Origin: a virus
DNA length: 23,483 bases
IMG/VR virus record: IMGVR_UViG_3300044951_000572
Span: 1 to 23,483 of that record
Reading direction: 5' to 3' (one strand)
Of this stretch, positions 17,278-20,298 are shown in pieces. The notes beneath the pieces are model-generated. The model had not been told where the DNA came from, did no database searches, and was given only the letters and a program-made list of their open reading frames with translations. A program made the translations under genes and the position numbers. Numbering within the stretch: the first letter of the stretch is position 1; every line of letters starts with the position of its first letter.

Positions 17278-17628
17278 TCACTCATCAAACATTTGTTGAA
17301 AAGGGCCATCCATTTTAGCTTCCATGATCTTTCGCTCATCAAGGGCTTTTTGGACTCGCTCAATGCGGAGATTGCGATAGTGCTGGAGTTCTTCAATGTC
17401 ATCAATCCAAGGGGTCTTGACAACATCAAACACTCGCAGTTCAGCCCTGCGGCGAACCTTCAGTTCTACTCTGTTCATCACGATGCTTGCAACATCTTCA
17501 GCATGGTTTGCTTTGATGGCTTCCACCAGGGCAACGCTGTCTTGGATAGCATCAGCGATATCATCTGGGTCTAACTCCTGGACAATCGCCCAGCACTCGT
17601 ATTTAAATTTTTCCTCATCGGTTGCCAT
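17278..17628 (-). CDS. First gene of the leftward operon, helical protein of unknown function
   Basis: The 116-residue product starts ATDEEKFKYECWAIVQELDP, continues DIADAIQDSVALVEAIKANH, VASIVMNRVELKVRRRAELR and ends in a charged helix (RIERVQKALDERKIMEAKMD). It is acidic overall with no metal site and no known motif. ATG 17628 has CAGGAG upstream; the frame stays open to 17763 but that extension crosses the divergent control region. As first gene of the operon it is nearest the presumed leftward early promoter. Confidence 0.6.
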   Translation of the reverse strand: MATDEEKFKYECWAIVQELDPDDIADAIQDSVALVEAIKANHAEDVASIVMNRVELKVRRRAELRVFDVVKTPWIDDIEELQHYRNLRIERVQKALDERKIMEAKMDGPFQQMFDE

Positions 17629-17763
17629 ATATTCACTCCTGTTGACCACTGCCAAATAGCAGTGATAGGACTTTCGCACAGAAAAAAGATGCAGGGAATA
17701 GGTGTTTTCCCTAGTGCAAAAACTTGTAAAACCCATCATACTGAGGTTTTTGGAGACAAGCAA
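17629..17763 (+). promoter_or_regulatory. Divergent control region between leftward and rightward early operons
   Basis: This 135-base gap separates two divergent operons and must hold promoters for both. Visible elements are a perfect hairpin CACTGC-CAAATA-GCAGTG at 17647-17664 just upstream of the leftward ribosome site, the TAGGTGTTTTCCCTA palindrome at 17699-17713, and a possible rightward promoter GTGCAA (17714-17719), 17 bases, CATACT (17737-17742), whose -35 abuts the palindrome. The promoter match is only moderate. The palindrome placed between both directions fits an operator for a phage or host regulator. Confidence 0.5.
17699..17713 (-). promoter_or_regulatory. TAGGG-N5-CCCTA-type palindrome, copy 3
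   Basis: TAGGTGTTTTCCCTA, 70 bases upstream of the first leftward gene, also overlapped by a GGGAA-N8-TTCCC inverted repeat (17694-17711). Of all copies it has the clearest promoter position, lying directly beside the candidate rightward -35 box. Confidence 0.5.
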
Positions 17764-18126
17764 ATGCGTTTAAACCTCACCCATCGAACATTGCTCAAGC
17801 GCCTATCAGGTGGCCCCAGGACAATGCTTGAGATGACCCACAGCCACACAGACAACAACTCTGTATCGTTTCACTATCAAAGATACCTGCCCGATTTGGA
17901 GCAATTTGGGTATGTAATTAACCATCAAGAGAAGTGGCATCTGACTGAGTATGGGCGCATGGAGATGAACAGGGCCATCAGTGGTGCAGCTATGCGGATT
18001 GAGAATGGGTCTGTCAAAGAAATCTATGATGGCAAGGAATTGCGTAGGAATGTTCAACGCCGTGGTTGCTATGATTTCTTGAAGTATCCAAGTCGCTTTG
18101 GCGACAATCAGATTTACAAAGCCTGA
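17764..18126 (+). CDS. Putative winged-helix regulatory protein (120 residues)
   Basis: The product starts RLNLTHRTLLKRLSGGPRTM, then HYQRYLPDLEQFGYVINHQE and WHLTEYGRMEMNRA, which reads as helix, helix, recognition helix and a wing ending in W-LTE-G, a typical winged-helix pattern (compare LTx-GR/LTEKG in many phage and archaeal regulators). The C-terminal part (YDGKELRRNVQRRGCYDFLKYPSRFGDNQIY) resembles a tail common to small phage proteins. GGAG lies eight bases upstream of the ATG. First gene of the rightward early operon and next to the control region, so an early regulator is plausible. Confidence 0.6.
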   Translation: MRLNLTHRTLLKRLSGGPRTMLEMTHSHTDNNSVSFHYQRYLPDLEQFGYVINHQEKWHLTEYGRMEMNRAISGAAMRIENGSVKEIYDGKELRRNVQRRGCYDFLKYPSRFGDNQIYKA

Positions 18127-18127
18127 T

Positions 18128-18208
18128 ATGATGTTTGGGAATCCGGCTAGGGTAGCTCCTGAAAAGACGATTAGTCCCCGTCCTGCCGTAAATTCCCTTG
18201 GTGACTAA
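18128..18208 (+). CDS. Possible 26-residue peptide
   Basis: Tiny reading frame starting one base after the preceding stop, product MMFGNPARVAPEKTISPRPA then VNSLGD. No ribosome site is visible. It occupies most of the 102-base gap before the initiator-like gene, which otherwise shows no hairpin or clear promoter. Its protein-like composition is the only support. Confidence 0.25.
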   Translation: MMFGNPARVAPEKTISPRPAVNSLGD

Positions 18209-18228
18209 ACCTATGACTTAAGGTTGAT

Positions 18229-18963
18229 ATGCAATTAATTCCCAAAAACTGGGTTTCTTTCCAGCACTATAAGCATCGCTCTCCACCCTGGATAAAGTTT
18301 CATCGTTCGATTCTGAATGACAGAAGCTATATGAGCTTGCCACTTGCTAGCAAGGCGCTAGCACCATTAATGTGGTTGCTTGCATCAGAGTCCAAAGATG
18401 GAACTTTTGATGGCTCACTGGATGAGCTTGTGTTCAGACTCCACATTACCCCAAAAGACTATCAAGATGGTGTTAAGCCATTGATTGATAAGGGATTCTT
18501 TATTGTTGCTAGCGGAGTGCTAGCAGATTGCAAGCAACTTGCTATCCCAGAGATAGAGACAGAGAGAGAGATAGAGACAGAGAAGAGACAGAGAGCAACT
18601 AGCGTTGCACCGCCTGACGGCGTTTCACAATCTGTTTGGCAGGAATTCGTTAATCATCGAAAGTCAAAGAAAGCCCAGGTCACCCAGTTGGTGATTGATG
18701 GAATCCAAAAGGAAGCTAACAAGGCTGGGTTTAGCCTTGAAGATGCCCTGAAGGAAGTCGTTGTAAGAAATTGGCAAGGTTTCAAAGCTGAGTGGGTTTT
18801 ACCAAAGCCCACCTTTGGCGACATGGCGAGGGTATCTGTTGCACCCATTCAAGGCCGTGATCCTGCTTTACTCAAGCTGGATGAAGACAAAAAGCACACA
18901 GGCCCACCACCGCCAGAAATCATGGCACAAATCAGAAATGCGTTGAAAGGAAAAGTAACATGA
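18229..18963 (+). CDS. Replication initiator / helicase-loader-like protein
   Basis: The 244-residue protein begins with a phage replisome-type module: WVSFQHYKHRSPPWIKFHRS, MSLPLASKALAPLMWLLASE, FDGSLDELVFRLHITPKDYQ and VKPLIDKGFFIVASG form a winged helix (about 8-100). A Glu/Arg linker (residues 107-124) is followed by SVWQEFVNHRKSKKAQVTQL and AGFSLEDALKEVVVRNWQGFKAEW (about 136-188), the C-terminal domain of DnaT/phage-O-like loaders. AAGGTTGAT precedes the ATG. It probably binds the origin and recruits a helicase; the gene itself carries repeats suited to an origin. The C-terminal -FKAEW- motif is the strongest link to phage replication proteins. Confidence 0.7.
   Translation: MQLIPKNWVSFQHYKHRSPPWIKFHRSILNDRSYMSLPLASKALAPLMWLLASESKDGTFDGSLDELVFRLHITPKDYQDGVKPLIDKGFFIVASGVLADCKQLAIPEIETEREIETEKRQRATSVAPPDGVSQSVWQEFVNHRKSKKAQVTQLVIDGIQKEANKAGFSLEDALKEVVVRNWQGFKAEWVLPKPTFGDMARVSVAPIQGRDPALLKLDEDKKHTGPPPPEIMAQIRNALKGKVT
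18345..18608 (+). other. Candidate phage replication origin (palindromes and direct repeats inside initiator-like gene)
   Basis: Within the initiator-like gene lie two perfect TGCTAGC-N5-GCTAGCA palindromes (18345-18363 and 18507-18525), a GCAAG-CAA-CTTGC inverted repeat (18530-18542), two identical 17-base purine-rich direct repeats with 18-base period (18549-18565 and 18567-18583) plus a partial third, and GCAAC-TAGC-GTTGC (18595-18608). In lambda the origin lies within the O gene between the DNA-binding and partner-binding domains, the same position as here. Origin function is inferred. Confidence 0.5.
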
Positions 18964-19124
18964 CAGAGCAACAATTCGAGCAAGCAATGGATGGTTATCA
19001 GTTAGATAGCCAATATGCGGAGTTCATCATGGATCAACAAACAGTTGGGAATGGTCATGTTTTGACCACATTGATGGAACGAGGGGATTATTATGAAGCC
19101 TTCAAAGAAAAGATGGTGACATGA
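18960..19124 (+). CDS. Small paralogue A (MTEQQFE type, 54 residues)
   Basis: The product is TEQQFEQAMDGYQLDSQYAE, then FIMDQQTVGNGHVLTTLMER and GDYYEAFKEKMVT. It starts on an ATGA overlap with the initiator-like gene and has AAAGGA upstream. It is a tandem paralogue of the next gene: both start MTEQQFE-AM and end GDYYE-FKEKM. Function unknown; small acidic helical proteins of this kind are common between replication genes. Confidence 0.7.
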   Translation: MTEQQFEQAMDGYQLDSQYAEFIMDQQTVGNGHVLTTLMERGDYYEAFKEKMVT

Positions 19125-20210: not shown

Positions 20211-20298
20211 CCACAAAAAGGCTTACCAAAGGGCTTTAAAGGGGCTTTTAAGGGGCTTTTGTTGGTATTGGTGGACAGTGAGAGAGGGTAAGACATGA
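20203..20298 (+). CDS. Possible 31-residue peptide before the HNH gene
   Basis: Starting at the third of three consecutive ATGs (20203; AGG eight bases upstream), the product is IDHKKAYQRALKGLLRGFCW followed by YWWTVREGKT. It overlaps the previous stop by eight bases and its own stop overlaps the next ATG (ATGA), the coupling style used throughout this genome. An aromatic-hydrophobic stretch (GFCWYWWTV) could associate with membranes. Part of the coding sequence is a GGGGCTTTTAA tandem repeat. Confidence 0.4.
   Translation: MIDHKKAYQRALKGLLRGFCWYWWTVREGKT

Follow-up and report, generated by a model that had tools for sequence, protein, structure and literature searches.

Does the initiator-like gene of this virus harbour a replication origin to which its own product would bind? 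We addressed this question in a stretch of 23,483 nucleotides from IMG/VR record IMGVR_UViG_3300044951_000572 (hereafter the window), following up a preliminary description that had predicted the initiator-binding sites of a lambda-O-like origin inside this gene.

The gene (18229..18963, + strand) encodes 244 amino acids and was assigned from PHROG matches and an AlphaFold2 model. Residues 1-120 match phrog_26426, 'replication protein' (E=7.5e-30), and residues 115-193 match phrog_678, 'replication initiation O-like' (E=1.1e-18). The model, built on a 43-sequence alignment and of low overall confidence (pTM 0.37), predicts an ordered N-domain (residues ~1-95) that resembles a small helical DNA-binding domain, a disordered linker (~97-125) and a helical C-domain (~134-190). 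The protein has no Pfam or NCBIfam match, a PDB sequence search with the family profile returned nothing below E=0.65, and Foldseek of the model against the PDB gave nothing significant, a DnaD-like domain appearing only at E=6.8. Among BFVD structures, the matches named 'Replisome organizer' are weak (E=0.025 and 1.5), the stronger ones being phage replication and DUF1376 proteins.

The gene belongs to a short rightward block that follows a divergent leftward block, and is flanked by a Sak-type annealing protein gene on its left and a RuvC-like gene on its right. No helicase or loader gene (P or dnaC) was recognised beside it in a non-exhaustive look at the 23.5-kb fragment; a related gene adjoins the replicative helicase gene in phages Cr-LKS3 and ctEw122, and dnaC in PhiPLPE. 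A search of the window against Rfam gave no match, and a promoter and terminator scan of 17600-19100 was uninformative. GC skew, which had been suggested as a check, proved equally uninformative: it tracks gene direction, shows nothing distinctive at the initiator-gene site and gives no independent support for an origin.

Palindromic boxes at helical-turn spacing

The preliminary description had noted two copies of TGCTAGC-N5-GCTAGCA, 162 bp apart. Both are present (18345-18363 and 18507-18525) and exceed chance: a search for the 19-bp palindrome with up to 3 mismatches gives 6 matches against 1.07 expected, a count reached in 0/100 shuffles, and the two copies together were recovered in 0/50,000 codon shuffles that preserve protein and codon usage. 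The sequence thus stands, but not the 19-bp palindrome as the unit. The repeat unit is a 6-bp palindromic hexamer of GCTAGC type, occurring once per helical turn, with further degenerate boxes in phase, and forms two arrays within the gene. Pairing of GCWWGC at 11, 22 or 33 bp was matched in a single one of 50,000 codon shuffles of the same kind. All four copies of GCTAGC in the window lie inside the initiator-like gene, and across the window and six phage genomes exact 11-bp motif pairs are confined to the initiator gene. Elsewhere in the window, a separate short tandem repeat, GGGCTTTTAAG, occupies 20231-20260 with a period of 11 and 2.7 copies.

No strand is assigned to the boxes. Array A, with steps of 11, 11 and 21 bp, comprises A1 (GCTTGC, 18335..18340), A2 (GCTAGC, 18346..18351), A3 (GCTAGC, 18357..18362; GCTAGC, GCTTGC or GATAGC in relatives) and, two turns further on, A4 (GCTTGC, 18378..18383; GCTAGC in many relatives). 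It sits under the helix formed by residues 39-53 of the predicted protein. Array B, stepping by 11 bp throughout, comprises B1 (GCTAGC, 18508..18513; in some relatives GCTAGT, TCTAGC or others), B2 (GCTAGC, 18519..18524), B3 (GCAAGC, 18530..18535; GCTATC or GCTTGC in relatives) and B4 (GCTATC, 18541..18546). With steps of 11 bp, the reading frame changes from one box to the next. The previously described element GCAAG-CAA-CTTGC (GCAAGCAACTTGC) can indeed be read at 18530, but it arises merely where B3 runs into B4, and relatives do not keep it.

The suspected nucleotide-level constraint was borne out. The full N-domain is common to 58 sequences (the window and IMG/VR loci), of which 38 remain after removal of near-duplicates. 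The boxes persist at synonymous sites in every relative with this N-domain, and the refuting outcome named in the preliminary description, their loss in close relatives under a conserved protein, was not observed. GCTAGC at both 18346 (A2) and 18519 (B2) is kept in 38/38. Within the first 108 codons, synonymous sites differ in 0.14 of pairs in the boxes and in 0.43 outside them (p=5e-5, stratified permutation within degeneracy classes; the test placed A4 at 18379 instead of 18378, exchanging codon 50 (0.22) for codon 52 (0.23), which leaves the result unchanged). Leu98, within B2, is encoded by CTA in all 38 sequences, a codon that accounts for 7.7% of leucines in the other genes of the window, and codons 101-108, which include B4, show zero synonymous change among relatives. 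The constraint on the boxes therefore acts at the DNA level. Conservation alone does not identify what binds there, because box mutations usually alter the protein too.

A purine-rich tract and two stem-loops

Codons 94-127, which mostly encode the disordered linker, hold array B, a hexanucleotide tract and a first stem-loop. The CAGAGA tract (18549..18594, + strand) was delimited by TRF with a 6-bp period, and also encodes the charged linker. Purines make up 84-89% of its coding strand in the two clades compared below, with a mean of 89% among relatives, while its AT content is no higher than that of the gene (54% vs 53%). No AT-rich element was found beside the boxes; a local AT peak lies upstream, at ~18201-18256, and stays below the 99th percentile of the window. 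The two 17-base direct repeats described previously, AGAGATAGAGACAGAGA at 18549 and 18567, are present, but their 18-base period is one length variant of the hexanucleotide tract, whose length varies between relatives. We consider the tract a candidate opening or helicase-entry zone.

Two adjacent tetraloop stem-loops (18595-18622) follow at the junction between linker and C-domain. Stem-loop 1, GCAAC-TAGC-GTTGC (GCAACTAGCGTTGC; 18595..18608, + strand), was correctly picked out earlier, and its stem shows compensatory change: relatives have GCCAC/GTGGC, GCCGC/GCGGC, GCGGC/GCCGC or ACAGC/GCTGT. In an alignment of hand-picked sequences, double changes in this stem number 18 against 5.0 in shuffles (0/500). 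Stem-loop 2 (CGCC-TGAC-GGCG; 18611..18622, + strand) comes immediately after. Genes with other C-domain types carry different stem-loops at a similar place, and some sequences have none. The excess of stems over codon shuffles reaches z=2.8, 8.2 and 4.5 in three sets, values that overstate the independent evidence because the sequences are related.

Boxes that change with the N-domain

A sister N-domain clade comprises 80 viral contigs and four phages (DC33, ctEw122, ct2t2046 and PBR31), the phage N-domains being 29-40% identical to that of the window. In the homologous place these genes carry GATATC at exactly 11 bp and no GCTAGC in array B, and the boxes are followed by the same GAGACA-type tract as in the GCTAGC clade. 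When all 64 palindromic hexamers were scanned at 10-12 bp, only GCTAGC and GATATC emerged, both at 11 bp and one per clade, with 17 exact pairs in 18 genes and 79 exact pairs in 50 genes, respectively. With one mismatch allowed, the means per gene are 3.9 pairs for GCTAGC (0.10 in codon shuffles) and 2.0 for GATATC (0.21). Array A is largely missing from the GATATC clade, and its role is therefore less certain. One hybrid from a bacterial genome (L249:4001-4705) combines a GATATC-clade N-domain and GATATC in array B with GCTAGC at 11 bp in array A, and is perhaps an evolutionary intermediate. Related genes also occur at 37 loci in bacterial genomes (Proteobacteria, Planctomycetes, Gemmatimonadota, Nitrospira and others), where GCTAGC boxes at 11 bp are kept in many and GATATC in several; prophage-like loci that retain such GCTAGC boxes occur in Planctomycetes, Alphaproteobacteria, Gemmatimonadota and others. 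As an aside, the record of Limnohabitans phage DC33 (PQ492659.1) places it in the Inoviridae; with a 39-kb genome, a peptidase lysis gene and very long genes, this placement looks wrong.

Exchanges of the N-domain give a second comparison. Nineteen relatives possess a C-domain of the window type (most 89-99% identical) joined to a different N-domain, termed T2 or T3, and GCTAGC is missing from all of them. In blastn comparisons of these swapped relatives, similarity is lost from 18109-18233 and resumes, in nine of them, at 18611-18613, starting at the first base of stem-loop 2; the flanking pieces are mostly 82-97% identical. T3, whose N-domain is unrelated, has TGYATRCA-like palindromic boxes at 10, 11, 20, 21, 30 and 31 bp at the end of the N-domain, followed by a ACCGAAAC-type tract. 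T2 is of DUF1376 type (Pfam E=1.3e-23), and its repeats vary by sub-clade (GTTCAAC at 11 bp, CCCCCYATA at 12 bp, or CCSANTSGG-like), in numbers too small to support any claim. Altogether, as far as these sequences tell, boxes appear, vanish or change sequence together with the N-domain, which amounts to a natural swap experiment.

In DUF1376-type initiators (loci L286-L365), the sub-clade repeats precede an AACCATA tract that encodes an NNHKP linker. Moreover, one 16-kb contig (IMGVR_UViG_3300020044_006362) carries two initiator genes with different N-domain types in opposite orientation, which may mean either two origins or a chimeric assembly.

A probable origin within its initiator gene

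The boxes, their spacing, the nucleotide-level constraint, the correlation with the N-domain, the boundary of the exchanged piece and the covarying stem are all seen directly. From these we infer N-domain binding, strand opening, helicase loading and origin activity. We propose that the gene probably contains a replication origin that would be bound by the N-domain it encodes and inherited with it as one specificity cassette, a reading to which we give a probability of about 80%. That the origin would be bound by its own N-domain is proposed because the arrangement matches those of lambda, SPP1 oriL and TP901-1/Tuc2009, namely sites matched to the N-domain within the initiator gene, beside a strand-asymmetric tract, with helicase or dnaC adjacent in other phages. 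The comparative evidence thus strongly supports the predicted initiator-binding sites of an intragenic origin.

In the proposed mechanism, the N-domain would bind short palindromic boxes (GCTAGC in this clade), one per helical turn and on one face of the DNA. Binding would take place at array B (18508-18546), array A (18335-18383) forming a second cluster. Once assembled, the complex of protein and DNA would strain the adjoining strand-asymmetric tract (18549-18594), to which the C-domain would bring the helicase or its loader, and the stem-loops may delimit the opened region or aid priming. N-domain, boxes, tract and linker would form one cassette exchanged as a unit at stem-loop 2, so that binding specificity would always travel with its sites.

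Sites within the gene that follow the N-domain type would arise equally if the boxes were operators, the N-domain binding its own gene to block transcription or translation while the origin lies elsewhere, and the modelled resemblance of this domain to small helical DNA-binding domains would suit such autoregulation. However, operators are normally found at the promoter and the boxes lie 100-320 bp inside the gene. Moreover, the hexanucleotide tract beside the boxes recurs in another form in the unrelated T3, which looks like an origin layout, and both the PHROG matches and the neighbours found in other phages (helicase, dnaC) point to replication. We therefore regard autoregulation as unlikely. 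It is even less probable that the locus is a site for swapping initiator halves in which replication plays no part. Its sharp right-hand breakpoint at stem-loop 2 is what such module exchange would produce, but this breakpoint is away from the boxes; the boxes belong to the piece that is exchanged and are not alike from module to module, which prevents them from acting as shared homology.

We give almost no credence to the idea that codon bias or constraint on the protein makes the hexamers by chance. The residue pairs Ala-Ser and Leu-Ala are indeed common, and conservation extends to several of the residues concerned; nevertheless, one and the same hexamer falls in different reading frames at steps of 11 bp, the sister clade keeps the spacing and changes the sequence, and both the codon shuffles and the frozen synonymous sites contradict this explanation.

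Beyond this clade, an N-domain with its own one-per-turn palindromic boxes, a strand-asymmetric hexanucleotide tract and a stem-loop might form an exchangeable cassette placed before a shared C-domain, the boxes belonging to each DNA-binding N-domain. We advance this common plan tentatively, at slightly less than even odds. If it holds, the low-complexity linkers seen in phage replication proteins (ETETETK, TVTETKT, NNHKPITNN) would be a side effect of the origin DNA that encodes them, and the stem-loop would be a structural part of the origin. The origin reading would also supply a rule for locating origins in many uncultured phages whose N-domain is of this or a related kind. Finally, GCTAGC, GATATC and TGYATRCA, with their initiator domains, would form a matched natural series on conserved scaffolds; a change of origin specificity is therefore testable by domain and box swaps.

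The lambda origin has four 18-bp iterons, all of them hyphenated inverted repeats, together with a high-AT region of 39 bp (PMC6022878). The present locus is similar to lambda O/ori-lambda in that repeats and putative opening zone lie inside the initiator gene, between its N- and C-parts: the boxes (18335-18546) precede the C-part (after ~18600), and the repeats are thus N-terminal to the presumed helicase-loading part, as in lambda-type origins. It differs by its 6-bp palindromes 11 bp apart in place of four 18-bp hyphenated iterons, by a tract that is purine-rich and not AT-rich, and by an N-domain without recognisable homology to that of lambda O, the C-part alone matching the 'O-like' phrog_678. 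The earlier label 'lambda-O-like' therefore applies to how the locus would work, and not to 18-bp iterons, an AT-rich element or N-domain homology. Stx phages have six iterons, with 13 extra residues, and their repeat number varies in frame (PMC7466680); similarly, one GATATC-clade gene (L087:2180-2959) has six boxes because 33 bp (11 codons) of the array are duplicated in frame.

SPP1 gp38 binds direct repeats within its own gene, at oriL (PMC6316719), and the genes for TP901-1 ORF13 and Tuc2009 Rep2009 contain the cognate origin, which is rich in direct repeats (PMC8965321). As in SPP1 and TP901-1, direct repeats here lie within the cognate gene, and they follow the N-domain type. SPP1 differs in having another origin, oriR, and in an opening element that is rich in AT, and a sequence relation to it forms no part of the likeness. 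The likeness to TP901-1/Tuc2009 is one of layout; structural matches to 'replisome organizer' proteins are weak. Homologous N-domains are found in proteins of phrog_26426 type, such as gp04 of Iodobacter phage PhiPLPE and replication protein O of Cylindrospermopsis phage Cr-LKS3. Both phages have GCTAGC boxes at the window's gene positions +117, +128, +149 and +290, with additional boxes at +197 in both and at +230 in Cr-LKS3, while the C-domain of PhiPLPE differs from that of the window. The PhiPLPE and Cr-LKS3 records that we viewed carry no origin annotation, and no description of these hexamers was found in the open-access literature searched. Origins within initiator genes are already known; what is new here is the use of palindromic hexamers at 11 bp, an arrangement with no AT-rich element, and a specificity that is switched together with the N-domain.
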